Shown here: positions 11,438-36,412 of the stretch, piece after piece
Numbering within the stretch: position 1 is the stretch's first letter
Layout: every line of letters starts with the position of its first letter
Source: Mongoliibacter ruber
GTDB taxonomy: Bacteria; Bacteroidota; Bacteroidia; Cytophagales; Cyclobacteriaceae
Length of the DNA: 64,000 nucleotides
Direction: 5' to 3'
NCBI RefSeq assembly: GCF_003003005.1
Contig: NZ_PVTR01000004.1
Location: 1-64,000, forward strand
Notes under the pieces: generated by a model
Database searches by the model: none
Seen by the model: the letters and a program-made list of their open reading frames with translations, nothing else
What the model was told of the DNA's origin: nothing
Program-made: the position numbers and the translations under genes

Positions 11438-11545
11438 CTTTTGATGAATTGAGTCCCCGGAATGGTGAACTAGAAAATTATTATGACACTTAATTTACAT
11501 ATAAAGGTAGTTTATTTTTGTTGAAATTTAAATATGGGAGAGTTG

Positions 11546-11665
11546 GGGAACTGATGAAGTGACGAATTGATGAACTGATGAACTGGGGAATTGGGGAATT
11601 GATGAACTGGGGAATTGACGAAATGGGGAACTGGGGAATTGACGAAGTGGGGAAATGACGAAGTG
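11546..11665 (+). repeat. Degenerate 8-bp tandem array, 15 units
   Basis: Fifteen contiguous octamers follow the pattern [GG/AT/AC]-GAA-[C/T/G/A]-TG (for example GGGAACTG, ATGAAGTG, ACGAATTG). The 8-bp phase is kept throughout. It is non-coding and lies upstream of the wzi-like gene. Confidence 0.9.
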
Positions 11666-12141
11666 GAGGGCTGGTTGTAAATTGTTAAAAGTTAAAGGTT
11701 AGATGTTGGGTTTGTGATAGTGTGCGGGCTGTCCTCATTGTGCAGTTTGGTGGATTGATGAACTGACGAAGTGATGAACTGATGAACTGGGGAATTGACG
11801 AAGTGACGAAGTGGGGAACTGTCGAACTGGGGGATTGGGGAATTGGCTGTAAAAGGTTAAAAGTTAAAGGTTAAATGTTGGGTTTGTGATAGTGTGCGGG
11901 CTGTCCTCATTGTGCAGTTTGGTGGATTGATGAATTGACGAAGTGAGGGATTGATGAACTGGGGAACTGGCTGTAAAAGGTTAAAAGTTAAAACTTGCCC
12001 CGGCGAATGTCGGGGGGTTAAGTGTTGGGTTTGTGGTAGTGTGCGGGTAATCCTCTTTGTGTAGTTTAGTGGATTGATTAATCGACGAACTGATGAACTG
12101 GGGAACTGACGAACTGATGAACTGACGAATTGACGAATTGT
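11666..12141 (+). repeat. Higher-order repeat: linker plus octamer array, three further periods
   Basis: A conserved linker of roughly 75 bp (TTAAAAGTTAAAGGTTA, GTTGGGTTTGTG, TAGTGTGCGGG, TCCTC, GTGCAGTTTGGTG) alternates with octamer arrays of about 12, 6 and 9 units at about 11752-11845, 11926-11972 and 12070-12141. The third linker has an inserted CCCCG/CGGGG hairpin at 11998-12015. The octamer count varies between periods while the linker is conserved. Confidence 0.85.
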
Positions 12142-12264: not shown

Positions 12265-12285
12265 TCCGAAGGCACAACCTTCGGA
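12265..12285 (+). repeat. TCCGAAGG hairpin
   Basis: A perfect 8-bp stem TCCGAAGG/CCTTCGGA with a five-base loop CACAA. The reverse-orientation copies are at 30899-30919 and 31231-31251. Confidence 0.85.
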
Positions 12286-12299
12286 TAACACACCACCTT

Positions 12300-12652
12300 T
12301 ACCAACAAATGGAATTTTTAGGGCCTAAAATAAAAAATAAGCATTAAGAGCATCAATTCGCTTTAGTCCTTAGACTTATTTCTATTGTATTTCTACTGTA
12401 TTTCCACAATATATCTACTTTATTTCTTTCGCCGCCGTGAGTGTCCTCACTCATGGCCATTTAAGCCTTTAGAACCTGCAATACGCTAGGTTCTTAATTT
12501 TATCCCGATTCTCTTCGTTCTCGGGATCTACATTACACTACGATTTCTATTTATTTCAATCGTATTTCTACTGTATTTCAATCATATTTCAACTTTACAC
12601 AGATTCTCTTCGTTCTCGGGATGTACGTTACACTTCGATTTTAATCGTATTT
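12300..12652 (+). repeat. Repeat module with 11-bp phased units and hairpins
   Basis: Contains the TAGGGCCTAAAATAAAA block, 11-bp GAAATA-type units (read on the minus strand) at about 12380-12420 and 12542-12595, a TGAGTG/CACTCA hairpin at 12438-12453, and two TTCTCTTCGTTCTCGGGAT copies. The same content appears inverted at 30.66-31.08 kb. The module runs right up to the stop codon of the sugar-transferase gene. Confidence 0.85.
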
Positions 12653-14103: not shown

Positions 14104-14106
14104 TCT

Positions 14107-15407: not shown

Positions 15408-15414
15408 AAGTATG

Positions 15415-17641: not shown

Positions 17642-17755
17642 TTTACCTTATTACATTTATTTTGCAAATGATTTGAAATTCCTAAATAAGAATCTAAATA
17701 TGTTGATTGTAAAATTTCAAAAATTTAATTCTTACAAAAAAAATGTTAGTAAGCC

Positions 17756-18874
17756 CTAAAAGGAAATTTGATATGGACAGCACATATTTGAATTTCCGTA
17801 CATTGACCCAAGAAATACTATTATATACAAAAACATAACTAAAAGAGAAATAAACCTTTTTCTTTTTATAAAATATAAATAGTAAACAATATAAGACAAC
17901 AATAGAGGCCTAAAAATTAAGAAATAACTAAATAATCTACCAATCAATTTAACCTCGTAAAAAACATTAAAAAGTATAGCACCTATGAAAAAAAGTACAA
18001 TATATGGTCTAAGACTAGGCTGCCATTTAATTAGGTTTTTACTAAACACTATTATAAATAAATTAACTACTAATTTAAATACAAATCCATATCCTAAACT
18101 TACATCTTGTGAAGTTATCTGACCTCTATCTACATAACCTACATACCTATCAATAACACCGATATTTTTACTTAATGACAAGAAAAGCAATTCAAAATTT
18201 TGAAAAATAATAGAAAGATCTATAAAAATAAAAAGTATTAGTGAACACCCATAAATAAGAATCCAGAAAAATTGATTGTATAACTTATCATAGGGTAAAA
18301 AATAAAAGGGTATAAGAAGTAAAGAAGTTGAATGAAATAAACTCGCTGCACAAACAAGCAATAAAAATAATTTAAAATTACGATCAACAATAAACTTAAC
18401 ACTAAAAACCCATAACCCCATGGCAGCAAATTGCCTAACACCATTCATTCCCCAAAAAAAATATTCTTCGGAAAAAAGAAAAAAAACAAAAAATGGTATT
18501 ATATATTTAGGAACTGACTTAAAATAAAAGTACCAAGAAATAAACGCCATTATAAAAAATACACCTTGGTATCCTAAATCAAATACCCCCATTAACCAAT
18601 TAAGACTGTAAAATCCTAATTCATAAAATTGTTGAGAATAATTAAATTTCGAATTTGAAGATATTGAATGATAAATAGAAACATAACCACTCCAATCAAC
18701 ACCAACTTCAAATCTAAAACCTATAAAAAATGACAATACTAACAGAATTAATATATAAAAAATATCAAATTCAAATTGTTTATACTTTATTTTTTTATTT
18801 CTAAGATAAAAGCTTGTAAAAAAAACAAACGACATCAAGCTTAAATAAAATAAATATGTAAATATATCAGTCAT
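17756..18874 (-). CDS. EpsG-family polysaccharide polymerase (Wzy-like)
   Basis: A 372-residue protein with about ten hydrophobic helices. The signature RFEVGVDWSGYVSIYHSI near residue 54-71 is the conserved loop of the EpsG family (PF14897), and WGMNGVRQFAAMGLW near 133 fits the second conserved segment. These proteins polymerise lipid-linked repeat units in the periplasm. It is very probably the polymerase of the AT-rich cluster and pairs with the flippase at 22.2 kb. The window has a second, unrelated polymerase/ligase at 48.0 kb, supporting two separate glycans. Confidence 0.85.
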   Translation of the reverse strand: MTDIFTYLFYLSLMSFVFFTSFYLRNKKIKYKQFEFDIFYILILLVLSFFIGFRFEVGVDWSGYVSIYHSISSNSKFNYSQQFYELGFYSLNWLMGVFDLGYQGVFFIMAFISWYFYFKSVPKYIIPFFVFFLFSEEYFFWGMNGVRQFAAMGLWVFSVKFIVDRNFKLFLLLVCAASLFHSTSLLLIPFYFLPYDKLYNQFFWILIYGCSLILFIFIDLSIIFQNFELLFLSLSKNIGVIDRYVGYVDRGQITSQDVSLGYGFVFKLVVNLFIIVFSKNLIKWQPSLRPYIVLFFIGAILFNVFYEVKLIGRLFSYFLIFRPLLLSYIVYYLYFIKRKRFISLLVMFLYIIVFLGSMYGNSNMCCPYQISF

Positions 18875-18958
18875 TAATTATTATCAATTTAAGTATCAAA
18901 AATATGCTGCTTTAAAGAAAATTAAGGGACAAGATTTACTGTAAAAATTATTTCAAAC

Positions 18959-19957
18959 TTATCCTATATTAAAAAAAATTCGGATTTTTCTATTTAAAAT
19001 AACAATAATTGAAAATAAAACTAATGAAGTATTTAATAATTTAATTTTACCTTTATTGATACGAATATCTCCAGTATCTATTTCTCCTTTAAGCTCTTTC
19101 TTAATTAAACTTAATATTTTAAGATAGTTTTTAAATGTAAGCGAATAAATTAATTTATTAAAAATAGTAGAAACAGAATTGTATATTGAAAAATGCAATA
19201 TATTAATTTGCTCGTAACTTAATTTTGAATTTTGAGCTAAAAAGTCATTTATAAAACTAATGCTATTTTTTAAATTATAAATCTTATCAAAGGTCCAGAT
19301 CCTTGATGCGCTATCAGACCGCTCTTTTACCAAATAAAATTTTTGATCAACAAAAATAATTTGTTTTATGTAAAGATGTACTAAAGAAATAAAAATACTA
19401 TCTTCCATATTTGCTAGACCCTCAGGGAATTTAATTCTATTTTTTTTTAAAAAATTAAGATTAAAAATACAACCGCATACAGAGCCCCTTAAATATGATT
19501 TCTCAACTATAAGATCAAAGCCTTCAAATTGTTTTTTAAAGTAAGATTGATCAAAATTATATTTTTCTTCTTCAATATCTCCATTTTGAAATTTAAAAGA
19601 CCTAGCAATTATCATTTCAATCATGCTCTTATCAATGGAATTGAAAATAGCATTTAAAGATCCTGGAAATATTTCATCATCTCCATCTACAAAACAAATC
19701 AATTCTCCCTGCGCTTTTTCTAAGCCTGAGTTTCTCGCGACACTGACACCTGAGTTCTTTTGATGAAAGACTTTGATCCTATTGTCATTTAAGGCATACT
19801 GTTCACATAATTCCCTTGAACCATCTGTACTTCCATCATTAATAAGGATCAATTCAAAATCTTGAAAATCTTGAGAAATGATTGATTCTATGCATTTTCG
19901 TAAATACCCTTCAACGTTATAAACTGGAATTATAATCGATAGATAAATATTAGTCAT
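18959..19957 (-). CDS. Family 2 glycosyltransferase
   Basis: A 332-residue GT-A enzyme. LSIIIPVYNVEGYLRKCIES, LINDGSTDGS, HQKNSGVSVARNSGLEKAQG and the metal-binding FVDGDDEIF near 91 place it in GT2. The C-terminal region is helical and ends with a hydrophobic stretch (NTSLVLFSIIVILNRKI) that may associate with the membrane. It overlaps the pyruvyl transferase by 8 bp. Confidence 0.9.
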   Translation of the reverse strand: MTNIYLSIIIPVYNVEGYLRKCIESIISQDFQDFELILINDGSTDGSRELCEQYALNDNRIKVFHQKNSGVSVARNSGLEKAQGELICFVDGDDEIFPGSLNAIFNSIDKSMIEMIIARSFKFQNGDIEEEKYNFDQSYFKKQFEGFDLIVEKSYLRGSVCGCIFNLNFLKKNRIKFPEGLANMEDSIFISLVHLYIKQIIFVDQKFYLVKERSDSASRIWTFDKIYNLKNSISFINDFLAQNSKLSYEQINILHFSIYNSVSTIFNKLIYSLTFKNYLKILSLIKKELKGEIDTGDIRINKGKIKLLNTSLVLFSIIVILNRKIRIFFNIG

Positions 19958-21095
19958 TCAAAATATCATTCAAAAAACGAATTGATTTTTCTTTCTCTAG
20001 TTCCAAAATTTTGTTTACGTCAGAAAAATCTATTTCAGTTTTTGCTACTTCCAAGAAATTAGAACTATTTTCTGTAATTAATCGATTTTCTAAACCGAAA
20101 GTTTTTAGTAAAGAATAAAATCGCGAAGCCCCTCTTTTCTCATTGATTATTGCAAGAAATGGCTTATTGAAAATTACAGAAAAAGCAGTACCATGAAATG
20201 AATCAGTAATTACAAATTCTGCATTTGCAAAACCCTCAATCCATTGTTCTACCTCAGGAAAAATACATTTTTCTAAATCAAAACTTTTTTCATTTTCTAA
20301 AGCAAAACTTTGACTTGGCATTACTTCAAATCCCTTTAACTTTATTGCTTCACTAACTCCATTGATAATATCATTTTTCTTTTGATTACGATCTAACACA
20401 TAAACAAATAATCTTTCTTTATCTTGTTTAAAATTGCGTTTTTTTAGCAGAGATAGATATTTTTCTTTACTTAATAACATGGATGGATCAATTAAATGCT
20501 TAGCGTCTACATTTAAAAACTTTTTACACATAACTACACCATCATCTTCCCTTACTGATACTCCATCAAAAAATTGAATCAAATCTTTGAATCTTTCTGT
20601 TTCCTTTTTTGTAAATTCCCAATTTGAAACACCAAAAGAAGCAGAATATGCTATTTTTTTTACTTGATTATTATTTTTGAGAAAATCTAAAAATTCAAGA
20701 TTATTTCCACGGACAGAACTTCGTCTCCATACCTGATCACTTCCAACAATATATGCATCGAACATATATTTTTGGTGAATCTGGTTAATTTTAGAATTTT
20801 GAGAAAAACTTTCTGTAAGCTTTATGTGGCCTTTAACAAAACTTCTTGTGTTTCTATTTATCAAATCTGATTCCTCCTTGGTCAGCCAGCCTCTTAATTT
20901 TACACTCTTTCCTTTTAACATTAATAAAAATCTTTTGCCAAATGAAAAAGTTTTAATTTTTATAGGTGTAGTTGGAATTCTATCAATTGTATAAACATCA
21001 TGCCCCAATTCAATTAAAACTTGCTGGAGAGCATAGTTTTGCAAAATACCACCGTAGTTATTAATTATTGGGTGAGTAATTATTCCTATTTTCAT
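19950..21095 (-). CDS. Polysaccharide pyruvyl transferase family protein
   Basis: A 381-residue member of PF04230. The N-terminal KIGIITHPIINNYGGILQNYAL has the NYGG-x-LQ signature. YIVGSDQVWR near 112 and ITDSFHGTAFSVIFNKPFL near 292-310 are the other family motifs. These enzymes add a ketal-linked pyruvate from PEP to a sugar, giving acidic polysaccharide. Bacteroidota loci often carry this version with the NNYGGILQ start. It overlaps the GT2 gene downstream and follows the hydrolase gene by 9 bp. Confidence 0.9.
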   Translation of the reverse strand: MKIGIITHPIINNYGGILQNYALQQVLIELGHDVYTIDRIPTTPIKIKTFSFGKRFLLMLKGKSVKLRGWLTKEESDLINRNTRSFVKGHIKLTESFSQNSKINQIHQKYMFDAYIVGSDQVWRRSSVRGNNLEFLDFLKNNNQVKKIAYSASFGVSNWEFTKKETERFKDLIQFFDGVSVREDDGVVMCKKFLNVDAKHLIDPSMLLSKEKYLSLLKKRNFKQDKERLFVYVLDRNQKKNDIINGVSEAIKLKGFEVMPSQSFALENEKSFDLEKCIFPEVEQWIEGFANAEFVITDSFHGTAFSVIFNKPFLAIINEKRGASRFYSLLKTFGLENRLITENSSNFLEVAKTEIDFSDVNKILELEKEKSIRFLNDILND

Positions 21096-21104
21096 AATAA
21101 GTTT

Positions 21105-22238
21105 CTATTTGATTCTACTTAAGTATGCCATTAGCATACCTTGAGATATTTCACTTTTCCCAAAAGATCTTGAATAATTATTAAATCCTTTAGTATCGCC
21201 AGAAGTTTGTAATATAAAACCATCTTTTGAAGTGAAATTATTTAAAGTTTCTAAAACAATATTAACATCAACCAATTCTTCAGGAAAACAATAAAGCATC
21301 ATAGTGGTAGTACTTGCATCAAAATTAATATCACTTCCAGGAAATTGCGTCCAAATATTATTCAATTTCAACTTGTTTAAAGTGTATATTAATCCATTAT
21401 ACTCCTTCATATAACTTCCATCTAGCTTATGCAATGCATTTAATGCTAATAAATACCAACCAATTCCCCTTCCCCAATTAATTGAACCAATTTTAGTATA
21501 AGTATCCAAATTGAATCCATGGGATGGTAAAAATGTATGATTATCAATTCCATGTTTAATAAAAGCATTCATTTGGCTTTTAGCTATATCCAAAATTCGT
21601 TTCTCTCCAGCTATTGTATAATAAGAAACTAAAAAAGGGATAGTTTGCCCTAAAACATCATTAAACCAGAATCTAATATTTGGTCTGTATAAAATTACAT
21701 TATTATTACGCAAATAATTTTCTTCTAAATAGGAGTAAATAATAGAAGCAAAATTCAAATATTTTTTATTGTTTAAAACTGTATAAAGATCAACAGCTAC
21801 GACGCCAAAAATCGCCTGATCCACTTTATCTAAATTGAATTTTGGGTTCCCTTTCGCATCTAATAATTTGTCGAATGCATCCCTAACTACCGAAATACCT
21901 GTATCGTTCTTCTTACTTATAGAATATTTTAACAAACCATACATCAGCAAAGCCCGTGGATAATTATACTTTCTAAAGTTATTATTGTATTTATTTAAAT
22001 AAATATTAACAATATTATTACTGAATCCATCTGTATCAGTCCATTGCATTTTTACTTTCGTACCCTTAATTGTTTCTATCGAAGCATTATAAACTTTTTT
22101 TTCAAAAACAGCTCTGTCAAAGACAACTTTTCTTTTTCGCAGCTTTCGTTTTTGAAAAACGTTAGTGATGTAAGGAATTATATCTAGTTTTAATACTAAA
22201 AAATTTAAAAAAATTGAGATAATTAAAAGTATTAACAT
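21105..22238 (-). CDS. Membrane-anchored GH88/GH105-like unsaturated glycuronyl hydrolase
   Basis: A 377-residue protein. An N-terminal hydrophobic helix (LILLIISIFLNFLVLKL) without an obvious cleavage site suggests membrane anchoring. The rest is an alpha/alpha-barrel pattern. RPNIRFWFNDVLGQTIPFL and NWGRGIGWYLLALNAL match the GH105 (YteR-like) signature Asp and WGRG-W regions, and FDASTTTMMLYCF fits the C-terminal helix. GH105 enzymes cleave unsaturated uronyl residues left by a lyase. Inside an assembly operon this suggests trimming, turnover or chain-length editing of a uronate-containing polymer. It overlaps the flippase gene by 7 bp. Confidence 0.75.
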   Translation of the reverse strand: MLILLIISIFLNFLVLKLDIIPYITNVFQKRKLRKRKVVFDRAVFEKKVYNASIETIKGTKVKMQWTDTDGFSNNIVNIYLNKYNNNFRKYNYPRALLMYGLLKYSISKKNDTGISVVRDAFDKLLDAKGNPKFNLDKVDQAIFGVVAVDLYTVLNNKKYLNFASIIYSYLEENYLRNNNVILYRPNIRFWFNDVLGQTIPFLVSYYTIAGEKRILDIAKSQMNAFIKHGIDNHTFLPSHGFNLDTYTKIGSINWGRGIGWYLLALNALHKLDGSYMKEYNGLIYTLNKLKLNNIWTQFPGSDINFDASTTTMMLYCFPEELVDVNIVLETLNNFTSKDGFILQTSGDTKGFNNYSRSFGKSEISQGMLMAYLSRIK

Positions 22239-23758
22239 AATGGATAAACTTTAGATTTTATAAATGAAAATATTTTTTTACGTTCAATATTAGTCATACC
22301 AATCAAAAATACAACAAGTATAACAACCACTTCTATAATTAGAGTGTCAATTAAAAAATTTGAAAAACTTTGTGTGTATGAATTAAAGCAACCAAACAAG
22401 AATAATATTAACAAGGATAAAAATGTTACTAAAATTGTTTTAAAAATTACTTCTTCTATAAATTTAATAATCTTTAAACCAATAAGTCTTTGACAAAAAT
22501 AACAACGTATCCCTAGTGCGCAAAAATGAGAAACAACGATAGAATAAAACACTGACTCAGGAGCCATGCCATCCGATAACAAGAAGTAGGCAATGGGAAA
22601 AGGTGCCATAAATACTATTGAAACAAATATTTGATAATTCTTAATTTTACCTGAAGATTGAATTCCTTTAATTAATGGACCAGACATACTTTCAAAAAGA
22701 GATGATATAAGAATCAAAATTACAAAAACATTTGTATGTGGAGGAACCACCTTGAGCCATAGACTTAAAACATAGTTTATGTTTAAAATGACTGGTATCG
22801 TGATTATAAAAATTAAAAAATAAGAGTACTTAGAGCTAATTAGTATTAAATGGTGCATTTTTGAGATATCATCGGAAGAATAAGCTTTAATAATTTGAGG
22901 ATTTACAGCCTTTTGAAAATTTGTGATAAATAAGTAGACTGCAGTATTCACTTGTTGAGTAAGAGCGTATGCACTATTTACCACAAGGCCATAAAATAAA
23001 TTTAATATCACGTTAATCCCCTGAATTTTTAAAATCACTGCCAAATTTCCAAACAGGCTCCATCCAGAAAAATTAATCAATTCTTTAAAATAAATTTTAT
23101 CATACTTAAAACTATATTTGCTTGCTGTATAGTTTCTTCTACAATAAACCTGGTATGCAATCCTAACAATGAAACTAACTAAAAAAATCATTACTGAATA
23201 TGCAATCAGTTTGTCTCCACCATAAACGACCAAAAGAAAAACCAAACCTAATTTTAAACATACTTCAACTATGCTTATGTAAGCATATATATTCATTTTC
23301 TCGTAGGCAATAATTAGCGAATCATAAGGCACCTGAATAATACCTATTAAAGCAGTAAGAACAGAAAATTGATAGACAATATTAGCTGCAAAAAGTCTAT
23401 CCGGAGGTAAAACAACATGATAATTCAAATACCAAAGCCCTATTGTCTCTGCGAAAAATAAAATAATAAAAGCAATAGCAAAATGTATTGTTAAAGTTAC
23501 ACTAAAAGTTTTTTGTAACTTTTTTTCATCTTTTTTCCCTAAATCAAACGCCAGATATCTTTGCGTTGCCGAAGACATAGAAGAATTTAAAAAACCAAAT
23601 AAAGCGACAATTCCCCCTACTAAGGAATAAATACCATAATCGGACACTCCAAGCTGCTCCAAAACAATTCTGGACATGTAAAGTGTAATGCCCATTACTA
23701 AAAACATCCTAAAATAAAGGAATAAAGTGTTTTTAGCTATAGTTTTTGAAGAAGACAA
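22232..23758 (-). CDS. Wzx-type oligosaccharide flippase
   Basis: A 508-residue MOP-superfamily transporter with about 14 hydrophobic helices. The N-terminus KTIAKNTLFLYFRMFLVMGITLYMSR resembles Bacteroidota repeat-unit flippases, and GVSDYGIYSLVGGIVALFGFLNSSM follows. It flips the undecaprenyl-PP-linked repeat unit into the periplasm for the EpsG-like polymerase. The start codon is TTG. No in-frame ATG precedes it before a stop, and the first internal ATG (codon 18) would remove the amphipathic start. It is the first gene of the AT-rich island, 203 bp after gmd. Confidence 0.88.
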   Translation of the reverse strand: MSSSKTIAKNTLFLYFRMFLVMGITLYMSRIVLEQLGVSDYGIYSLVGGIVALFGFLNSSMSSATQRYLAFDLGKKDEKKLQKTFSVTLTIHFAIAFIILFFAETIGLWYLNYHVVLPPDRLFAANIVYQFSVLTALIGIIQVPYDSLIIAYEKMNIYAYISIVEVCLKLGLVFLLVVYGGDKLIAYSVMIFLVSFIVRIAYQVYCRRNYTASKYSFKYDKIYFKELINFSGWSLFGNLAVILKIQGINVILNLFYGLVVNSAYALTQQVNTAVYLFITNFQKAVNPQIIKAYSSDDISKMHHLILISSKYSYFLIFIITIPVILNINYVLSLWLKVVPPHTNVFVILILISSLFESMSGPLIKGIQSSGKIKNYQIFVSIVFMAPFPIAYFLLSDGMAPESVFYSIVVSHFCALGIRCYFCQRLIGLKIIKFIEEVIFKTILVTFLSLLILFLFGCFNSYTQSFSNFLIDTLIIEVVVILVVFLIGMTNIERKKIFSFIKSKVYPLC

Positions 23759-23961
23759 TAGTTTAAATGATTAAAAAGTAATTGATCTAGATTATTAAGT
23801 TTAAATTTAAACGGGAATCTTGTATTAATTAAGAAAAGAAAAAAATTCTATATAGTTATGTGGGAAATTTTTCTACAAATGATTCTCACATATATATTAA
23901 ACACTGATGATAGCAGTTATTTAACAGAGGTGTTATTAAATTTATCTAATGTTTGAATGAT

Positions 23962-25110
23962 TTACTCAGTCTGTTTCAAAATTCTATGTCCCGCCTTCAC
24001 CAATTCAATATCTTTTTGAAATAAATTTAGATCCGCTACCATCATTTCTTCTACCAAGGCTTTTAAGTCATATTCAGGCTCCCATCCTAGTTTTGATTTT
24101 GACTTGGTAGGATCTCCGATAAGCAGATCCACCTCTGTTGGCCTAAAGTATCTTGGATCCACCTTGACCAAAACCGTTTCTAATTGTGGTATATTTAAAC
24201 TATGTCCTACCATCCCTGTAGATAATTCAAATTTAGCTTCATCTACAGTTTCCAAAATCCCAACTTCTTCTACACCTTGTCCTTCCCAGCGAAGAGAAAA
24301 ACCAATACAGGCAAATGCCATATTGACGAAATCACGCACTTTTGTCGTAACACCTGTGGCTATTACATAGTCTTCTGCTTGTTCTTGCTGTAAAATCAGC
24401 CACATGGCCATGACATAATCTTTGGCATGTCCCCAATCTCTTTTTGCATCCAAGTTCCCCATAAAAAGATCCTTTTGTAAACCTAAAGCAATTTTTGATA
24501 CTGCCCTGGTAATTTTGCGGGTAACGAAAGTCTCACCTCTTAGCGGAGATTCATGGTTGAAAAGAATTCCGTTACAAGCAAATAAATTATATGCCTCTCT
24601 ATAATTTACAGTAATCCAATAGGCATATAGCTTTGCAACAGCATATGGAGAGCGTGGATAAAATGGAGTCGTTTCTTTTTGTGGGACTTCCTGTACCAGC
24701 CCATATAGTTCAGAAGTAGATGCTTGATAAATTTTCGTCTTTTTTTCCAAGCCAAGCAACCTGACAGCTTCCAAAACCCTTAAAGTTCCTATACCATCAG
24801 CATTGGCCGTATATTCAGGGGTGTCAAATGATACCTGCACATGAGACATAGCAGCAAGGTTATAGATTTCATCTGGCTGTGTTTCCTGAATAATTCTTGT
24901 CAAATTCATAGAATCTGTCATATCTCCATAATGCAAGACCAGTCTAGGATCTTTTTCGTGTGGATCTTGGTAAAGGTGGTCAATCCGATCTGTATTGAAC
25001 AGTGAAGCCCTCCTTTTAATCCCATGAACTTTATACCCTTTTTCCAAAAGTAGTTCCGCAAGGTAAGCCCCATCTTGACCCGTAATTCCTGTAATTAATG
25101 CTGTTTTCAT
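23962..25110 (-). CDS. gmd: GDP-mannose 4,6-dehydratase, copy 1
   Basis: A 382-residue extended SDR that converts GDP-D-mannose to GDP-4-keto-6-deoxymannose with NADP. Motifs are [15 protein letters not shown] at the N-terminus, [17 protein letters not shown], the active-site [20 protein letters not shown] (YxxxK) near 160 and the [15 protein letters not shown] segment. It is close to the second copy at 40.8 kb but lacks that copy's extra segment near residue 290-330. No reductase/epimerase partner lies beside it; the only fcl is at 39.2 kb. It sits 39 bp after the TviB-like gene. Confidence 0.95.
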
Positions 25111-26463: not shown

Positions 26464-26518
26464 ATGTTTTGTTGTTGATAGAGGGTTGATGGTTGAGGGT
26501 TAAAGGTTAAAAGTTAAA

Positions 26519-26755
26519 GGTTAATAAACGGGCAGATAAATTTTTAACTATCAACTTATTAATTACCATTTTCTAGTCTCAATTTAAAGTTTCTGAAGAT
26601 AGTAAGGATTGAAAGTAAATGATCGGGTAAGTAAATTCACTTTGATATTAACTGACCCTGCTTATTTGAAAGTATTTATTTCCCGCAGATATCGCAGATG
26701 AACGCAGATAAGCTTCGCTTTTGACACAACAATTGTAGAGTGTAGATCTTAGATT
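26519..26755 (-). repeat. Duplicated leader upstream of tviB
   Basis: 237 bp starting 56 bp before the tviB start codon. It matches 28801-29038 upstream of manC with six substitutions and one single-base indel by eye. It includes a TTTCCCGCAGATATCGCAG / GAACGCAGAT segment near 26680-26710. GTTAAAGGTTAAAAGTTAAA-type tracts fill the gap to both start codons. Confidence 0.88.
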
Positions 26756-27185
26756 TCAGATTGGGGTTAATACTGAGTTGAAGGTTTGGTGTTCTGGTCT
26801 CAGTTCGTCAGTTCATCAATTCATCAAATTTCCTACACCCACAATCAACCCAACCTTTAACATCAAAATTGTAGATCTTAGATTTCAGATTTCAGATTTG
26901 GGTTAATACTGAGCTGAAGGTTTGGTGTTCTGGTCTCAGTTCGTCAATTCATCAATTCCCTACACCCACAATCAACCCAACTTTTAACATTTTTAACATT
27001 TAACCTTTAACACCAAAATTTTAGATCTTAGATTGAGGTCATTATTGAGTTGAAGGTTTGGTGTTCTGGTCTCAGTTCGTCAGTTCATCAATTCCCTACA
27101 CCCACAATCAACCCAACTTTTAACATTTTAACCTTTAACCTTTCTACCCCCCGACTTTTGCCGGGGCAAGTTTTAACAATTTTAA
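26732..27185 (+). repeat. Three tandem ~130-bp repeat units containing short octamer tracts
   Basis: Units start near 26741, 26872 and 27020. Each has GTAGATCTTAGATT, GAGTTGAAGGTTTGG, TGTTCTGGTCTCAGTTCGT, a short octamer tract (2-4 words such as CAGTTCGT or CAATTCAT), then CTACACCCACAATCAACCC. The last unit ends with a CCCCGACTTTTGCCGGGG hairpin near 27150. Three similar units lie at 29030-29407. Together with 26464-26740 this fills the gap between tviB and the four-helix-bundle gene. Confidence 0.85.
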
Positions 27186-27609: not shown

Positions 27610-27728
27610 AACAATTCACTTTAAATTGTTTATACTTCCCAATAATATCAAAGCTTCAATCTAACAGACCTAACTTTTAACTTTTAACTTTCAACAATCA
27701 AGGCTATCCCCAAGCACTAAACTTTGCC

Positions 27729-28739: not shown

Positions 28740-28800
28740 GGTGATTGAAGGTTTTAAGGGTTGAGGGTTGAAGGTTAAAGGTTAAAAGTTAAAGGTTAAA

Positions 28801-29038
28801 GGTTAATAAACGGGCAGATAAACTTTTAACTGTCAACTTATTAATTACCATTTTCTAGTCTCAATTTAAAGTTTCTGAAGATTGTAAAGATTGAAAGTAA
28901 ATGATCGGGTAAGTAAATTCACTTTGATATTAACTGACCCCTGCTTATTTGAAAGTATTTATTTCCCGCAGATATCACAGATGAACGCAGATAAGCTTCG
29001 CTATTGACACAACAATTGTAGAGTGTAGATCTTAGATT
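28801..29038 (-). repeat. Duplicated leader upstream of manC
   Basis: Partner of 26519-26755, starting 62 bp before the manC start codon. The one indel is an extra C in the GACCCC run. Confidence 0.88.
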
Positions 29039-29407
29039 GAGGTCATTACTGAGTTGAAGGTTTGGTGTTCTGGTCTCAGTTCGTCAGTTCGTCAGTTCCC
29101 TACACCCACAATCAACCCAACCTTTAACACCAAAACTGTAGATCTTAGATTTCAGATTTCAGATTGGGGTTAATACTGAGTTGAAGGTTTGGTGTTCTGG
29201 TCTCAGTTCGTCAGTTCATCAGTTCATCAGTTCGTCAATTCCCAACACCCACAATCCGGCCAAACTTTAACACCAAAATTGTAGATCTTAGATTTCAGAT
29301 TGGGGTTAATACTGAGTTGAAGGTTTGGTGTTCTGGTCTCAGTTCGTCAGTTCGTCAGTTCGTCAATTCATCAATTCCCAACACCCACAATCAACCCAAC
29401 ATTTAAC
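29030..29407 (+). repeat. Second set of three tandem ~130-bp units
   Basis: Units start near 29025, 29138 and 29279, with the same internal order as 26732-27185. The octamer tract differs in word number and order in each unit. Beyond 29407 up to the next gene (29794) I see no further repeat and no convincing gene. Confidence 0.85.
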
Positions 29408-29793: not shown

Positions 29794-30405
29794 TCAGGTA
29801 ATTTTTTGTTCCAAGAACCCATTCATTTGCTTACAGACTTTCTCAAAATTGTGGGTATCTGCAACAAAGAAAAGATGGGTATGCACAAATTTTTCTACAT
29901 ATATTCCTTTATCATGAATCTTGAATACAATAGGTTCATCTTCATTGCTGAAATCCACTTCACGCTTATCAGCTCCTTTCATGATTTCAGATTCGATAAT
30001 TGTTTTTCTCTCCCTACCGTAGTCATATTTCTTATGTAAAAAGGCCAGCAATTCCCCCTCAAAAAAAAAGATATAAAAAGAGGTGACTCGGTCGCCTTCT
30101 TTGACCACATAGCGATTTACTTCAAGATACCCTTCCACCCAAGCGGACCAACATGATACCCGGGGATTTTTCTGCTCAATTCTATTTAAGATTTTATCAG
30201 CCGAATAGTTGGAATCAGGCACATCAAACACAAACTCCTCCTTGACCTGTTGGAGTTTGAAGAATTGATCTTGCAGAATCTTAAAGGGATTAAATAACTC
30301 AGTACCATATTTGTATTTAAAATGAACCTTGACCCCATTGATTGATTTGCTTTTCCTTTGGTACCCGGAAAAGACAATGGAAAAATAATTAAAAATGCTT
30401 GTCAT
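29794..30405 (-). CDS. Hypothetical protein
   Basis: Starts at the ATG at 30405 (MTSIFNYFSIVFSGY). A TTG five codons earlier is less likely. About 203 residues, no recognised family, no signal peptide or clear membrane span. The composition is rich in aromatic and charged residues (VSCWSAWVEGYLEVNRYVV, SFYIFFFEGELLAFLHKKYDYGRERK), suggesting a compact alpha/beta protein. It lies alone between two repeat clusters and is unlike the carbohydrate enzymes around it. It could be cargo carried in with the repeats. Confidence 0.5.
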   Translation of the reverse strand: MTSIFNYFSIVFSGYQRKSKSINGVKVHFKYKYGTELFNPFKILQDQFFKLQQVKEEFVFDVPDSNYSADKILNRIEQKNPRVSCWSAWVEGYLEVNRYVVKEGDRVTSFYIFFFEGELLAFLHKKYDYGRERKTIIESEIMKGADKREVDFSNEDEPIVFKIHDKGIYVEKFVHTHLFFVADTHNFEKVCKQMNGFLEQKIT

Positions 30406-30659
30406 CGTATTCAATATCAATGTGGTTTTACAATTGTGTTCTACTAAAAATGACCAAGTTCAAATATTTTAGAAATAAACCTGATCTAAAGAAAATTAAA
30501 CAAGAACTATACCCAAAACCAATTCAAACAGAGATAAAACTCTATTCAAAGACAACATTATAAAGCATTTTTCAGGATTTAATGTTTCAAATGAAATTTT
30601 AAACAAACATTTATGCATTTTAAAAATATGAAAGATCCCTGTATTTTTTTGAATTTTTT

Positions 30660-31075
30660 TTATTTTTCCAGCTAAAAATCTACGCCGTTTAGAAGAAATA
30701 CGATTGAAATCGAAGTGTAACGTAGATCCCGAGAACGAAGAGAATTGGGATACTTTAGAAATATGATTGAAATACAGTAGAAATATGATTGAAATACAGT
30801 AGAAATAAGTCTAAGGACTAAAGCGAATTGATACTCTTAATGCTTATTTTTTATTTTAGGCCCTAAAAATTCCATTTGTTGGTAAAGGTGCTGCGTTATC
30901 CGAAGGTTGTGCCTTCGGATTTATGATTCTTGAGCTTATAGCTCAAAAGGGTTATTAAAAGTCCATATACGACAGAAATACCATTGAACACAGTAGAATA
31001 AAAAAAATAAGAGCCTATGCGTATTGAAGATTTCAAACGCTTAATTGGCCATGAGTGAGGACACTCACGGCGGCG
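30660..31075 (-). repeat. Inverted copy of the mosaic repeat, first module
   Basis: Carries, in reverse orientation to 12.2-12.65 kb, the CCCGAGAACGAAGAGAAT element, five consecutive 11-bp units at 30758-30812 (GAAATATGATT/GAAATACAGTA alternating), the TTAGGCCCTAAAAATTCC block, the TCCGAAGG hairpin (30899-30919), TTGAGCT-TAT-AGCTCAA (30930-30946) and the TGAGTG-AGGA-CACTCA hairpin (31052-31067). The stretch 30421-30659 holds nothing I recognise. Confidence 0.85.
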
Positions 31076-31103
31076 AAATTGTTTCTACTTTTTCTGACAA
31101 AAA

Positions 31104-31177
31104 AACCTTCGAGGTCCAAAAAAGACCTCAAAGGTTAGCAGTCCCTGACCTTTGGGGTTTCCAAAACCCCGAAGGTC
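31104..31177 (+). repeat. Two adjacent strong hairpins
   Basis: 31104-31136: AACCTT-c-GAGGTC, a 7-nt loop, then GACCTC-a-AAGGTT. 31147-31177: GACCTT-t-GGGGTTT, loop CCA, AAACCCC-g-AAGGTC. The two share the outer ACCTT/AAGGT arms. They sit between two direct copies of the flanking module. Confidence 0.8.
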
Positions 31178-31212
31178 TGGATGGAGGAAGGATGATAAAA
31201 AATCCATTAATT

Positions 31213-31412
31213 GGTAAAGGTGCTGCGTTATCCGAAGGTTGTGCCTTCGGATTTATGATTCTTGAGCTTATAGCTCAAAAGGGTTATTAAAAGTCCATAT
31301 ACGACAGAAATACCATTGAACACAGTAGAATAAAATAAAAAAAATTAAGAACCTATGCGTATTAAAGGTCCCAAACGCTTAAATGGCCATGAGTGAGGAC
31401 ACTCACGGCGGC
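31213..31412 (-). repeat. Direct second copy of the hairpin module
   Basis: Repeats 30881-31075: TCCGAAGG hairpin at 31231-31251, the same TTGAGCT hairpin, and the TGAGTG hairpin at 31390-31405. It is nearly identical for the first 115 bases and more diverged after. Confidence 0.85.
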
Positions 31413-31545
31413 AAATTTCGTCAATTCCCCAGTTCCCCAATTCATCAATCCACCAAACTACACAAAAAGGACAGCCCGCACACTACAACAAACCCAACTT
31501 TTAACTCCCCGACATTCGCCGGGGCAAGTTTTAACAATTTACAAC

Positions 31546-31745
31546 CAGTTCCCCAGTTCGTCAATTCATCAGTTCATCAATTCATCAGTTCGTCAGTTCC
31601 CCTCTTCATCAGTTCCCCAATTCGTCAGTTCCCCAGTTCATCAATTCATCAGTTCGTCAATTCCCCAATTCATCAGTTCCCCAGTTCCCCAATTCCCCAG
31701 TTCATCAATTCCCCAGTTCATCAATTCATCAGTTCGTCAGTTCGT
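31546..31745 (-). repeat. Uninterrupted 25-unit octamer array
   Basis: Twenty-five consecutive 8-bp words. All but one (CTCTTCAT, the eighth) read CA[G/A]TTC followed by CC, AT or GT. All six possible words occur. The preceding 31413-31545 holds a shorter octamer tract, the linker in inverted orientation and a CCCCGACATTCGCCGGGG hairpin. The sequence after the array runs through the linker again to the wzc stop codon at 31809. Confidence 0.92.
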
Positions 31746-31808
31746 CAAACTGTCCAAAGAAGACAGCCCCCACACTACCACAAACCCAACAATTAACCTT
31801 TAACTCCT

Positions 31809-34226
31809 CTACTTCCTCTTCAACGCCCTTTTCCACCATGGCAACTGTACTTCTTCGTGGTAGCCGTAACTGTTGTTACCATAGCCATAGCCGTAGCCAT
31901 AACCGTAACCATAGCCATATCCTGTATCGACGTGAACATCGTTTAAGATGCCATACACCTTTTTTAAGCCACCTTTTTCAACAAGGTTGTTGAGGATTTG
32001 GATATTCCCTTTTTGGGAGTACTCCTGACGGAAAACGTAGAAGTTAACATCAGAAAATTTAAAAAGCTCTTTGGTCTCAGACACCAAACCCACCGGAGGA
32101 CAATCCAAAATCACCACATCATAGGCTTCTTTGATTTCATCCATAATCTTGGCGAATTTATCCTTCAACAACAATTCCGCAGGATTGGGAGGTATTGGAC
32201 CGGATAAGATCACATCCAAATTCTCAAAACCCGATGGTTTTACTATTTTCTGCCATGGCATATCTGTACTGAGACAGGTACTCATCCCCAGGTCATTGAT
32301 CATTCCAAAGTCCTCTGCAATCTTAGGTTTTCTTAAATCCAGTCCAATCAACACCGTCTTTTTACCCATCAGGGAAAATACAGAGGCCATATTGATCGAA
32401 ATAAAGGTTTTACCCTCACCCGAGATGCTTGAAGTAAACAACAGTGTCGACTTGTCCTTATTGTCAGATAGGTAGGACAGGTCAGCCCTCAAACTCCTAA
32501 AAGCCTCCGTCACCGTTGACCTTGGATTATTCAAAACAGGCATTCCATCATCACTGCTATTTCTTCCAATAATTCCAATAAGAGGTACTTTTAACCTGGT
32601 CTCCAGCTCTTTGGGATCTTCGATCTTGGTATTCAAGAAATCCTTGACAAACACAAACCCCACAGGAAATATAAACCCTAGTATCACTGCGATCAGGTAG
32701 GTCAACAAGCGCTTTGGACTTACAGGGTTTAAATCCGCTTCAGCATCTTCTATGATTTTGTTGCTGGGAAGGTTGGAGGCCCTTGTAATGGCAGCCTCAG
32801 CCCTTTTTTGCAACAGGTAGGTGTACAGACCTTCATTCAAAGTAAACTCCCGCTGAATCCGGATCAGGTTCTGTTCCGTTTGCGGAAGACTACTGAAGGA
32901 GGATTCTATCCTTGAAATCCTGGATTCTAAATCTGATATGATCAAAGCAGCATTGGAATCTACATTTTTGAGTACTTCCTGAATGGATTTATTGAGGTCG
33001 GTAATCTGCAAATTCAATTCCCGAACAGGAGGTGCATTTTCCCTTAACCTTGACAATTGCACCGATTTCTCTGCTTGCAACTCGATCAGGTTCATGATCA
33101 AAGAATTCAAAATAGGATCTTCTATACCCATTCCGGAAGGCACCACGATTTGGTTATAAGAACCTGTCTCCAAGTAGCGCTGCAATTGACCGTAATAGTT
33201 CCGCTTGAAGCGCTCTTTGCTCAACTCAATTTCCAATTCAGACAATTGGTTAAAAATCACCGAGCCTTCATTGCTCATATCATAAATGGCATTGGTGGAT
33301 CGGAAGTCCTGCAACCTGTTTTCGATATACAGGAGAGAGTCGGTCAAGACCACAATTTGCTTGTCAATAAAGTCTATGGTATTGCTTGCGGTGAGGTTTT
33401 TTTCTTCCAGTTCATTCTCCAAGAACACAGTTTGCAAGGCATTCAAGTAGTCTTTTCCTTTGGCCTGATTGATCACCCTCAGGGTAAGTTTGACGATTGT
33501 GGCTTGTTTATCCATGGGAGCTACTGAAAGGGCATCTCCGGTGTAATGGTCTATCAAACTTCTTCTGTCTCTTACTCGAATGATAATCTCTCCTGACTTT
33601 TGGGTTCCTGTAAGTTCGATCATAAATTTATTACCGGGCAGAACTACTTCTTCTCCAAAAGAAAAAACCCTTTCTGGACTGAGTGGTTTTTCCGCTTTTC
33701 TATACGCCTCCTCACCAGGAAAAACTTGTCTATATTCGTCATCGAGATACTTGATAGAAAAGCTTTTTTCATTTTCCCATGTAATCTGAATATCACCATT
33801 ACACAATTGCGGATGATTCCAATCGACCTCTACTGTAATTGGCGTGTTTTTATAAACTTCTCGGGTCGCAAGTATTCCTTTTTGGAAGTAATCAACTTCA
33901 AAATTCACCCTTGATAAGGCCGCCGCTGCTATGGGTCTTGATTTGAGGATAATCATCTGATTGTTGAGACCGGCATCCCCCATTTGTCCAAGTCCCATAC
34001 CTGCTTCAGCAAATAAGCCAAAGGGGGATTCCTTTTCCTTGATAAAAAATTTAGAGCTTACCTCATATTGAGGGATGGCTATTTTCAAGTATATAAAAGC
34101 GATCAAAAGTGCTGAAAAAATCGAGAGTAATATATAAGGCCAAACCTTCAGTATCCTGAAGAATATGTCCATCAAATCTATTTCATCTTCTTCCACCTGA
34201 GAAGTAGTCGTATTTTGGTTATTCAT
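31809..34226 (-). CDS. wzc: Wzc-type polysaccharide co-polymerase and BY-kinase, copy 1
   Basis: An 805-residue fused protein. The N-terminal Wzz-type chain-length domain spans two transmembrane helices (WPYILLSIFSALLIAFIYL near 29 and LLTYLIAVILGFIFPVGFV near 515) with coiled-coil periplasmic segments. The cytoplasmic tyrosine kinase has Walker A SSISGEGKT near 600, Walker A' VLIGLDLRKP and Walker B VVILDCPPVG. In Walker A' the first Asp of the usual D-x-D is Gly. The C-terminus is an alternating Tyr-Gly tail (GYGYGYGYGYGYG) before a basic end and is probably the autophosphorylated cluster. It controls chain length and export with the wza gene 4 bp upstream. Repeat DNA reaches its stop codon. 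Confidence 0.93.
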   Translation of the reverse strand: MNNQNTTTSQVEEDEIDLMDIFFRILKVWPYILLSIFSALLIAFIYLKIAIPQYEVSSKFFIKEKESPFGLFAEAGMGLGQMGDAGLNNQMIILKSRPIAAAALSRVNFEVDYFQKGILATREVYKNTPITVEVDWNHPQLCNGDIQITWENEKSFSIKYLDDEYRQVFPGEEAYRKAEKPLSPERVFSFGEEVVLPGNKFMIELTGTQKSGEIIIRVRDRRSLIDHYTGDALSVAPMDKQATIVKLTLRVINQAKGKDYLNALQTVFLENELEEKNLTASNTIDFIDKQIVVLTDSLLYIENRLQDFRSTNAIYDMSNEGSVIFNQLSELEIELSKERFKRNYYGQLQRYLETGSYNQIVVPSGMGIEDPILNSLIMNLIELQAEKSVQLSRLRENAPPVRELNLQITDLNKSIQEVLKNVDSNAALIISDLESRISRIESSFSSLPQTEQNLIRIQREFTLNEGLYTYLLQKRAEAAITRASNLPSNKIIEDAEADLNPVSPKRLLTYLIAVILGFIFPVGFVFVKDFLNTKIEDPKELETRLKVPLIGIIGRNSSDDGMPVLNNPRSTVTEAFRSLRADLSYLSDNKDKSTLLFTSSISGEGKTFISINMASVFSLMGKKTVLIGLDLRKPKIAEDFGMINDLGMSTCLSTDMPWQKIVKPSGFENLDVILSGPIPPNPAELLLKDKFAKIMDEIKEAYDVVILDCPPVGLVSETKELFKFSDVNFYVFRQEYSQKGNIQILNNLVEKGGLKKVYGILNDVHVDTGYGYGYGYGYGYGYGNNSYGYHEEVQLPWWKRALKRK

Positions 34227-34230
34227 ATTC

Positions 34231-35043
34231 TTAGTTTATTGCATTTAAGACTAAAAGTACCGCAGATATTGTGGTTACGGCTAGTTGGAAGGTCTGCACA
34301 AAGTTCACACCAGTTCCCAATTCCCTGACTTTCATGGGTTCTGCGTACAGCATGTCATTGGGCCTTAGAAAGAAGAACTCAGATTCCACCAAGCGCTTGT
34401 CATTGAGGTTGATCCTAAATGAACGGGTCCCTGATGGGTATTGCCTGACCAAGACCATTTCGTCCCTTTTGGCTACAGGAGTCATGTCACCTGCATGGGC
34501 AATGGCCTGAAAAATATTGATTCTGTTTTGAAGAATAATATGGTTACCGTTTCTATTGAATTCTCCTAAAGTCGTAAACCTTACTCCCCCCAATCTTACC
34601 CTTACAAAAAGATCTTCTTTGTTGACATACTCAAGCATTTTTTCTTGAATAAGCTCTTTTGCTTGCTTGGTAGTAAGGTTATTAAGATTAACCTCCCCAA
34701 CTAATGGTAGTTCTACCATACCATTTTCATCAATTGTATAACCGGTAATAAAGAATATATCCCCTCCAGCAGTTATGTTCTGTTGTCCTGCCATTGCTAA
34801 CTGAGGATTTTTGGATGCCGCTATACCGAAAATTGCATTCAATTCTTCTGAAGTTGTTTGGATGTTAATATCCACCACATCATTGTACTGCAATAAGTAT
34901 TCTTCTGCCGTATTTTCTACCAAGACCCCAGGTTCGTACACCGGAAAAGTATCTCCCAAATCCTGCATGTATATAATCCGCTTGTTTGGTACACAGGATG
35001 CGATGAGTAATACAAAAAGTATCGCTTGAATTGCTTTGTTCAT
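34231..35043 (-). CDS. wza: Wza-like polysaccharide export lipoprotein, copy 1
   Basis: A 270-residue outer-membrane export protein. The signal sequence ends in a lipobox (VLLIASC, Cys17). A poly_export (PES) domain follows (YLLQYNDVVDINIQTTSEEL), with SLBB-type segments (GYTIDENGMVELPLVGEVNL and GGVRFTTLGEFNRNG). The C-terminal hydrophobic helix (LAVTTISAVLLVLNAI) could cross the outer membrane as in Wza. It is followed by its wzc partner after 4 bp. It is shorter than E. coli Wza, as usual for this phylum. Confidence 0.92.
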   Translation of the reverse strand: MNKAIQAILFVLLIASCVPNKRIIYMQDLGDTFPVYEPGVLVENTAEEYLLQYNDVVDINIQTTSEELNAIFGIAASKNPQLAMAGQQNITAGGDIFFITGYTIDENGMVELPLVGEVNLNNLTTKQAKELIQEKMLEYVNKEDLFVRVRLGGVRFTTLGEFNRNGNHIILQNRINIFQAIAHAGDMTPVAKRDEMVLVRQYPSGTRSFRINLNDKRLVESEFFFLRPNDMLYAEPMKVRELGTGVNFVQTFQLAVTTISAVLLVLNAIN

Positions 35044-35066
35044 ATAGATTCAATATTTTAATCGGA

Positions 35067-35074
35067 CAAATATA
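35067..35074 (-). promoter_or_regulatory. Putative -7 element of wza copy 1
   Basis: TATATTTG on the minus strand lies about 24 bp before the wza start. No TTTG sits 19-21 bp further upstream, so this is weaker than the promoter of copy 2. Confidence 0.35.
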
Positions 35075-35170
35075 GAAAACTTATTTTATTCGGAGCCCCA
35101 ATACAAGTTTAGTAAATTTCCAAAGAACTAAGTTTGTTTATAATCCCTAGATATATGTAGAAAATTCACA

Positions 35171-36412
35171 TTATACTAATTTTTTGTTATCACCTAGACA
35201 CCTGTAAAAACTCTCTTCATGCTGCTTGACCACTACTTTTGGACTAAAGACATTCTTAAGGGCTTTGGAACCTTCAATAGAAATTTCCTTTGAAATAATT
35301 TTTCTAAGCCCTTCGTAAATCGCATGCTCATCCTGATTGTCTAGGATCAGTCCTCCTCCATATTCATTCAAATAATCTGCAATCACCCCTACTTTGGGGG
35401 ATATGGCTACGATTGGTCTTTGGATGGAGGCATAGTCAGATAATTTACTCAAAAGCAAAATCCCTTTGGGATAAGGGGCTTCCAAAATCATCAAGTAATC
35501 GAAACCAGCCAAACTCTTGAGCATACTGAAGTAATCCTTAGGTGCATGACAGAAAATCTCTTCCTTAAGCCCTAAGGATTCGATTTGCCCTGGCATCTCT
35601 GGGTCTATTACACCAAAAACATGAAATTGGAATGCCAATCTATCCTCATGTTTAATTTTTGAAAAGGCTTTGAGTACTTTCAAGGCTTTCACATTGGAAA
35701 GCATATTTCCCGCATGACAAATAGAAATTGGCTTACCGGGTGCTTGGTTCACATCAAAGTCCTCTGCATGTATTCCTATATGGGGGATGACCTTTACTTT
35801 ATCTGTCTTGGTCTTGATGATCTTTTCATTGTAGTGCTCCCAAAGCAATTGAGAAGGGAAGGTATTTAAATCAGCATTCCGGAAACTAGTCTTGACAAAT
35901 CGATTGATCAGGTAAGATTGAAACCTGTTTTGGAAATTCATGCCAGGCCTGATATTTTCTGTAGGATCATTCCAATTGGCAATCCATGGTAAAGCAGTTG
36001 AAGCCTTTATTTTGGCTCCGACAAGATGTGCAATATTGGAAGGCATCCTACTCATGACAAGGTCATAGTTGTGTTTTTGATGCAGTTCAAGCCCCAAGTC
36101 CACTGCCTTACTTGCCCACCTGACTCCTTCTAAAGGAAGCTTGAAATAAAGAACTGCTTGAAACAATTCCCAATACCTTTGAATTGGCTTAACCGGGGTT
36201 TCGTCTACATAAAAATTAATGGCTTTCAGTGGTTCCCATACAGAGGACCAGTCTTTGGTATAAAATTGCTCACTTGGCCTACTGATGACATGAATGGTAT
36301 GACCTGACTCCATCAAGGCCAGGCAAAGTTTAGCATTGACCAAGGCCTCCGAAAACTCATAAGGAGGAAATGATGGCGCAATCATTAAAATTTTAAACTT
36401 TCTCATTTCCAT
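35171..36412 (-). CDS. GT4-like glycosyltransferase
   Basis: A 413-residue GT-B protein. ILMIAPSFPPYEFSEALVNAKLCLAL starts an acceptor domain, and ISICHAGNMLSNVKALKVLKAFSKI is the beginning of the donor domain. A clear E-X7-E is not seen at the usual place (LMILEAPYPKGILLLSKL). It overlaps the next GT4 gene by 10 bp and is the last gene of the flippase-GT4-GT4 run. The specificity is unknown. Confidence 0.8.
   Translation of the reverse strand: MEMRKFKILMIAPSFPPYEFSEALVNAKLCLALMESGHTIHVISRPSEQFYTKDWSSVWEPLKAINFYVDETPVKPIQRYWELFQAVLYFKLPLEGVRWASKAVDLGLELHQKHNYDLVMSRMPSNIAHLVGAKIKASTALPWIANWNDPTENIRPGMNFQNRFQSYLINRFVKTSFRNADLNTFPSQLLWEHYNEKIIKTKTDKVKVIPHIGIHAEDFDVNQAPGKPISICHAGNMLSNVKALKVLKAFSKIKHEDRLAFQFHVFGVIDPEMPGQIESLGLKEEIFCHAPKDYFSMLKSLAGFDYLMILEAPYPKGILLLSKLSDYASIQRPIVAISPKVGVIADYLNEYGGGLILDNQDEHAIYEGLRKIISKEISIEGSKALKNVFSPKVVVKQHEESFYRCLGDNKKLV

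Follow-up and report, generated by a model that had tools for sequence, protein, structure and literature searches.

An intergenic octamer array of Mongoliibacter ruber, probably one copy of a lineage-specific repeat family shaped by slippage and exchange

The tandem octamer array at positions 31546-31745 is likely to be one copy of a multi-locus, lineage-specific family of short-unit intergenic repeats that was shaped by slippage and exchange. The limited vocabulary of the array is most likely the residue of ordinary repeat copying, and, apart from acting as a changeable spacer, the array most likely plays no sequence-specific part. The array was analysed within the window, by which we mean the whole 64-kb stretch of DNA that opens contig 4 of the 5.0-Mb, 49-contig genome of Mongoliibacter ruber. 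The evidence comes from the order of the words, from the other arrays of this genome and of its family, and from simulations of repeat copying.

Results

Composition and word order of the array

A set of six words, CA-R-TTC followed by CC, AT or GT, accounts for 24 of the 25 octamers, and all octamers are in phase. An earlier reading of the sequence alone had described 25 strict-phase octamers that vary only at base 3 and at bases 7-8. This description holds for 24 words but not for word 8 (position 31602), CTCTTCAT, which lies outside the six-word set and is two bases off. Parsing of the 25 octamers did bear out that all six set words are present, with 7 distinct words in total, and the period of 8 was recovered both by a motif-free search and by Tandem Repeats Finder.

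The same reading saw no obvious period in the order of the words, and our results agree, as no lag from 1 to 17 was significant at the word level after family-wise correction (best z 2.77 at lag 10, p 0.13). The lowest single-lag p values were those of lags 10 and 8, the latter with an uncorrected p of 0.027, and the best Tandem Repeats Finder score for the region belongs to a 64-bp period with 86% match; a higher-order period of 64 bp was dropped because the word-level signal is not significant after correction. The longest repeated word string is 3, the same as in shuffles (p 0.50). Within the array, base 3 was associated neither with bases 7-8 in its own word (p 0.34) nor with the preceding word (p 1.0). 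To call the sequence combinatorially shuffled is fair for the word order of this array, but the pooled arrays of the genome show weak neighbour dependences. In tests whose words are not independent of one another, base 3 depended weakly on bases 7-8 (p 0.017) and on the next base 3 (p 0.002), and bases 7-8 were linked to the next base 3 (p 0.0007), with G after CC in 46 of 58 cases.

Table 1. Repeat modules and adjoining frames located in the window.
Feature	Position	Strand	Remarks
Octamer array (main array)	31546..31745	+	25 words CA-R-TTC-NN, one off-set word at 31602
Short octamer array	31424..31447	+	3 six-set words; left side of the same composite repeat as the main array
Non-octamer module of type A composite repeat	31448..31545	+	AAACTACACAAA..CACACTA..AAACCCAAC, TTTAAC words, CCCCGACATTCGCCGGGG hairpin, ..ACAAC
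Beginning of another type A module	31748..31808	+	Runs to the tyrosine kinase stop codon
Four octamer arrays with type A modules between	11544..12138	words on -	Looser vocabulary
Three type B composite units	26771..27129	+	About 136 bp each, 2-3 six-set words per unit
Three type B composite units	29047..29407	+	2-4 six-set words per unit
Stop-free frame spanning the main array	31383..31796	+	137 aa, judged non-coding; no NCBIfam or Pfam family
Polysaccharide tyrosine autokinase (Wzz/GNVR/AAA_31)	31809..34226	-	Stop codon 61 bp from the main array

Neighbouring modules and other repeats of the window

The arrays of the window lie in a polysaccharide region with a sugar transferase, a GDP-mannose dehydratase, a UDP-sugar dehydrogenase, a nucleotidyl transferase, a Wzi-like protein, the Wzz/GNVR kinase and an export protein. 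Both array orientations relative to one polysaccharide gene direction occur there. The arrays at 11.5-12.1 kb had been assigned the same vocabulary on the other strand; words are indeed shared, but the vocabulary is looser, and base 3 can also be C or T (CACTTC, CATTTC).

Several other features of the window were observed beside the octamers. The stretch from 14000 to 24000, within the polysaccharide region, is low in GC (25-31%), has octamer arrays of opposite orientation on both sides and may have been acquired. Arrays of 11-bp TATTTC-NNNNN words occur at 12377-12427, 12543-12594 and 30756-30807. The genus mate G021 has 34 matches to window positions 30000-36000, and since 17 of them fall on the 11-bp copy at 30.7-30.8 kb, this 11-bp family is common to the genus. 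Heptamer arrays of GGTTAAA/TTTAAC, which have limited vocabularies too, lie near octamer arrays at 26477-26526, 27671-27705 and 28749-28810, and AGATTNN heptamers lie at 26865-26902. Perfect hairpins (GTTAGTG-4-CACTAAC, CCGAAGG-n-CCTTCGG and GTGAGTG-4-CACTCA) are found in intergenic repeats at about 12218-12455 and at 30900-31260. The GTTAGTG-4-CACTAAC hairpin was counted 13 times in 28 kb of loci from the family genome G043, 4 times in 67 kb from G039 and 3 times in the 199 kb of this genome's array loci. Elsewhere in the window, positions 52999-61791 encode a protein of 2930 aa, in which SprB repeats and PKD domains occur together with a type IX secretion C-terminal domain; sorting domains of this kind are a mark of the Bacteroidota.

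Composite repeats and their placement between genes

The octamer arrays make up the 3' module of composite intergenic repeats, which come in two kinds. In type A, the octamers are preceded by TTTAAC heptamers, a CACACTACCACAAACCCAAC segment and, in many cases, a CCCCGACATTCGCCGGGG hairpin, and in type B this place is taken by AGATTNN heptamers and a TACTGAGTTGAAGGTTTGGTGTTCTGGTCTC segment. Modules like the one directly to the left of the main array adjoin arrays in loci L022 and L023 and at 11.5-12.1 kb of the window, and a few arrays carry the modules of neither type (for example in L016, L020 and L027).

Gene calls around the arrays were simple ORF picks of at least 110 aa. All 25 examined clusters lie between such calls, save that the 137-aa frame spans the main array and that one array in L023 shares 3 bp with a stop codon. 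Of the 24 clusters with a neighbour on the 3' side of the CARTTC strand, 15 have a gene end there at a median gap of 68 bp and 9 a gene start at a median of 106 bp (range 34-299 bp); in four clusters the array lies fewer than 10 bases from a stop codon. Genes on the 5' side are far away (median 551 bp for 22 clusters) compared with those on the near 3' side (24 clusters; Mann-Whitney p 3e-6, with contig-end clusters that have no neighbour dropped), and because the rest of the composite repeat lies on the 5' side, this asymmetry mainly shows that the octamers are the terminal module.

Arrays across the genome and turnover of their words

The pattern TTCRTCARTTCRTCARTTC has 125 matches in the 5.0-Mb genome, against 0 for a reversed control. 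Array loci were fetched for 100 of these matches together with C17:1-14000 and C16:66000-73000, so that the array counts are lower bounds. A loose parse of these loci gave at least 63 arrays, in which 341 of 439 words come from the six-word set, and a strict parse gave at least 57 arrays (three or more six-set words each) with 369 words in 25 clusters. Since 216 of the 255 interior words of the strict parse belong to the set and 39 lie outside it, the six-word vocabulary is dominant but not closed. The 39 off-set words carry 44 substitutions, distributed over positions 1-8 of CA-R-TTC-NN as 2, 10, 11, 0, 3, 1, 5 and 12; thus 28 fall in the three already variable columns, 10 in column 2 and 6 in columns 1, 4, 5 and 6 together. 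CA.TT is kept by 227 of 246 middle words of this genome. A motif-free search of 200 kb of contig 1 found no octamer arrays. Restricted vocabularies are likewise seen in heptamer arrays of this genome and of G043 (CACTNNN, ATCTYAM, RRGARRC). At L025 12073-12235 there are 22 heptamers, among which no variants but purine transitions recur (AAGAGGC, AAGAGAC, GAGAGGC, AAGAAAC, AGGAGGC), and G043 has long CACTNNN arrays at L169 2822-2927 (14 words) and L172 18665-18809 (20 words) in which CACT is almost invariant.

Pairwise comparison of 35 type B units allowed the rate of change of the words to be set against that of their flanks. In 71 pairs, which share units and are therefore not independent, the 60-bp upstream flanks are at least 97% identical (mean 99.5%), yet the word string is identical in only 5.6%, the array length is equal in 34% and same-index words agree in 45%. 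The words are thus replaced at a much higher rate than that at which the upstream flanks diverge. In 31 of the 35 type B units (window, L019, L021, L024, L025, L026 and L030) the array opens with GTTCGTCA, which indicates that it has a stable end, and change seems to enter from the 3' side. The earlier suggestion of a fast-evolving spacer is supported by this turnover and by the position of the 25 clusters between ORF calls, the 137-aa frame over the main array excepted.

Arrays in related genomes

A scan of 196 family genomes with four copies of CANTTNNN, ending in CANTT, gave matches in 47 genomes from 26 of 84 genera, but the real number of genomes is below 47, because several matches are simple runs that also have control matches (e.g. 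G006, G016, G033, G066 and G144). With the same pattern the genus mate G021 has 18 matches, versus 185 in this genome, and TTCRTCARTTCRTCARTTC matches only 4 of the 196 genomes. The words that follow CARTT in the fetched loci differ among genomes, being mainly AAA, CAT, ACA and AAT in G043; mainly CCA, AAA, AAT, CAT and AAC in G039; mainly ACC, CCC, CCA and CAA in G052; AAA, AAC and AAG in G194; and mainly CGA and CAA in G047. In loci from eight other genomes, a purine occupies position 3, which was left free by the search, in 161 of the 166 middle words, with A and G occurring together in seven of the eight genomes; positions 1, 2, 4 and 5 were fixed by the search patterns, so their conservation across genera is not evidence. 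A motif-free search of 199 kb of G043 did find two octamer arrays, both of which are CARTT arrays. A scan of named genomes with TTCATCARTTCATCARTTCATCA gave 81 stretches, and among the 80 listed loci (L037-L116) there are at least 34 arrays with six or more words. The variable columns differ among these arrays: variation affects columns 1, 2 and 8 in L083 (71 words), chiefly column 6 in L070, chiefly column 5 in L092, and column 6 in L045.

Three genes whose 3' ends touch arrays were traced into relatives; epimerase-like, pseudouridine synthase-like and HIT-like, the names given by reading to genes beside clusters other than that of the main array, are putative. After the epimerase-like gene, both this genome (G000) and G039, of another genus and with 88% identity of the protein, carry octamers in frame, in a run of 4 in G000 and of 3 in G039 (counted as AA.TG in the latter). 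The word set of G039 at this site, in gene sense TGTTTAAT, TGTGTAAC and TGTGTAAG, differs from that of G000; a single complete word, TGTGGAAC, is common to the two genomes, and the sequence beyond aligns well. After the same gene no array was found within 600 bp in G021, of the same genus, or in G129. Within 600 bp of the second gene there is no array in G021, G039 or G129, and within 600 bp of the third there is none in G021 or G129, while the gene itself has no match in G039.

Constraint or ordinary copying

The earlier reading regarded the vocabulary as constrained because variation is confined to fixed positions. This claim is not supported for the array itself, since four widespread variants placed by chance would be expected to hit as many columns as are variable here, and simulations of slippage routinely produce such vocabularies. 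In the main array, 4 minor variants (count of at least 2) fall in 3 columns, against a random-placement mean of 3.51 (p 0.45). Pooling of 18 arrays gave 41 columns hit versus 42.7 expected (z -0.96); these arrays were chosen for length and diversity rather than at random, four are from G043 and two from this genome, and 11 are seed-found arrays in a shifted column register with a seed that fixes part of three words. A universal constraint on fixed columns was rejected, as the arrays of other genomes vary elsewhere and variants are spread over the columns as chance predicts.

In simulations of tandem slippage in which substitutions were rare, one middle setting gave medians of 7 for the distinct words and 3 for the variable columns, and the six commonest words made up a median of 96%. 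Only 0-10% of the 40 runs at each setting matched the array jointly (at least 6 words, 92% in the top six and a longest repeat of no more than 4). Pure slippage leaves longer repeated word strings than observed, so extra mixing between arrays has to be assumed and is probably needed besides slippage.

Coding capacity and RNA structure

The 137-aa ORF over the array has no NCBIfam or Pfam match and the 136-aa ORF has no Pfam match. A protein-coding repeat is unlikely, as the stop-free frames belong to no family found, and the earlier view that the array is open in several frames only because its words lack stops is upheld. Neither strand of the array folds better than shuffles (z 0.17 and -0.54), and Rfam gave no match at gathering scores in the 64-kb window. 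A coding, RNA-structure or strand-specific role of the array is not supported.

Discussion

We propose the following course of events for the family. The octamer frame CA-R-TT-NNN, here CA-R-TTC-NN, forms the 3' module of composite repeats that have spread over the genome. Slippage, unequal recombination and conversion from one array to another may then have propagated a few substitutions within the frame, and breakpoints within words would recombine the variants freely, so that two variable sites could give six words in shuffled order. Several observations stand against so neutral a reading: pure slippage leaves repeated word strings that are too long, off-set words avoid the core, the pooled arrays show weak order effects, position 3 is nearly always a purine and the first word is largely stable. 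Shared ancestry of the word pool explains the purine at position 3, although a core that is selected or required for copying may do so too.

These points raise the alternative, which we consider rather unlikely, that the CA-R-TT-NNN grammar and its 8-bp phase are kept across many genera by selection or by copying that anneals at the core, with spacer words that are each genus's own, the arrays being phased recognition tracts. In the more specific form of this alternative, a protein would recognise the CARTT(C) core every 8 bp and leave the NN spacers free, with selection keeping the core and the purine. The frame does recur in other genera with other spacers, the purine was recovered at a position that the searches left free, and the off-set words of this genome avoid the core columns, CA.TT being retained by most middle words. 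Within single arrays, however, the variable columns are no more concentrated than chance, the arrays of more distant genomes vary in the would-be core columns, and the genus mate G021 is poor in arrays and has none within 600 bp at the three orthologous sites examined. We therefore regard such a binding tract as unlikely.

The arrays at 11.5-12.1 kb (minus strand) and 26.8-31.7 kb (plus strand) bracket the 14-24 kb stretch of 25-31% GC amid sugar-polymer genes, which would suit recombination substrates for the exchange of polysaccharide gene cassettes. This role is quite improbable, as other clusters adjoin seemingly unrelated genes, among them the epimerase-like, pseudouridine synthase-like and HIT-like genes and one for a type IX secretion-sorted protein. 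Even less probable is action in RNA as 3'-untranslated or terminator-like tracts. In some cases an array begins on a stop codon or directly behind one, and arrays supply stop codons in gene sense, and most of the 24 clusters turn their 3' side to a gene 3' end at short gaps; yet 9 of them face a gene start, neither strand is structured, the window has no Rfam match and the genes are simple ORF calls. The presence of both orientations against the same polysaccharide gene direction also argues against a strand-specific role in RNA. That collapsed or chimeric assembly made the mixed word order is highly improbable. Repeated modules adjoin the main array, and a number of arrays are found close to the ends of contigs (C7, C11, C16 and C17), so these repeats seem to break assembly and the arrays at contig ends may be misassembled; but the main array lies 31 kb inside a 400-kb contig, and such arrays are present in genomes that were assembled independently, one of them under a title that calls it complete (Flavobacterium sp. 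xlx-214). Copying by slippage and exchange remains the reading we prefer.

A link to REP-type mobile elements was considered but is not supported. The genome has seven Y1-transposase matches, and the best hairpins at four of these loci differ from the hairpins of the composite repeats. Two adjacent Y1-transposase genes lie amid many short hairpins of few recurring types at L162 and L163 (contig 17, 37-39 kb), which looks like a REP/RAYT-type system. Unlike REP and BIME elements, the octamer array has no hairpin of its own and folds no better than shuffles, the hairpins lying in other parts of the composite repeats.

Short tandemly repeated repetitive (STRR) sequences are the heptamer repeats of cyanobacteria. 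The heptamers of Calothrix are described in PMC4692102, and PMC4679880 summarises the prokaryotic long simple sequence repeats (LSSR), whose units measure 5-11 nt. The octamer family resembles both in its short head-to-tail units (period 8, within 5-11 nt), its patchy distribution among genomes, its dispersal over many intergenic loci (at least 57 arrays, in the 25 clusters between ORF calls) and slippage as the proposed source. It differs in that its units are not near-identical (7 distinct words among 25), its small word set changes from genus to genus and its arrays are the end module of composite repeats.

MacGregor (2015, PMC4679880) describes TAACTGA direct repeats in Beggiatoaceae, in Cyanobacteria and in five Bacteroidetes, with arrays of up to 43 copies and some intergenic regions that hold other heptamer repeats as well. 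Like the octamers, these are intergenic short-unit arrays that occur in Bacteroidetes too. According to the same paper, TAACTGA is one fixed heptamer which, in the Beggiatoaceae genome, lies mostly within several nucleotides upstream of start codons and whose related heptamers are rarely repeated there; the CARTTCNN octamers, in contrast, form a mixed word set, and of 24 clusters 15 have a gene end on their 3' side and 9 a gene start, at 34-299 bp. The tandem repeats of the archaeal Borg elements, as presented in PMC9879509, are likewise fast-evolving, recently formed and partly intergenic, but their units are described as perfectly repeated, with examples of 18-21 nt, whereas the octamer words vary. 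PMC12699852 reports no average enrichment of short repeats in bacteria and places Bacteroidota among the phyla of high repeat density. In literature searches judged by titles and the beginnings of abstracts, none of the listed papers describes octamer arrays whose word sets are particular to each genus, or arrays of this sort in this family. We conclude that the octamer family is related in kind to the STRR and LSSR and to the TAACTGA repeats, and that the shared frame with genus-specific words is the apparently undescribed part.

The arrays place a readable label on each repeat unit, by which slippage, unequal exchange and conversion can be traced word by word within and between bacterial genomes. 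Our results illustrate that a small, shuffled vocabulary that looks designed can arise by ordinary repeat copying. If the shared core should prove to be selected, the arrays would represent a new kind of phased intergenic tract.
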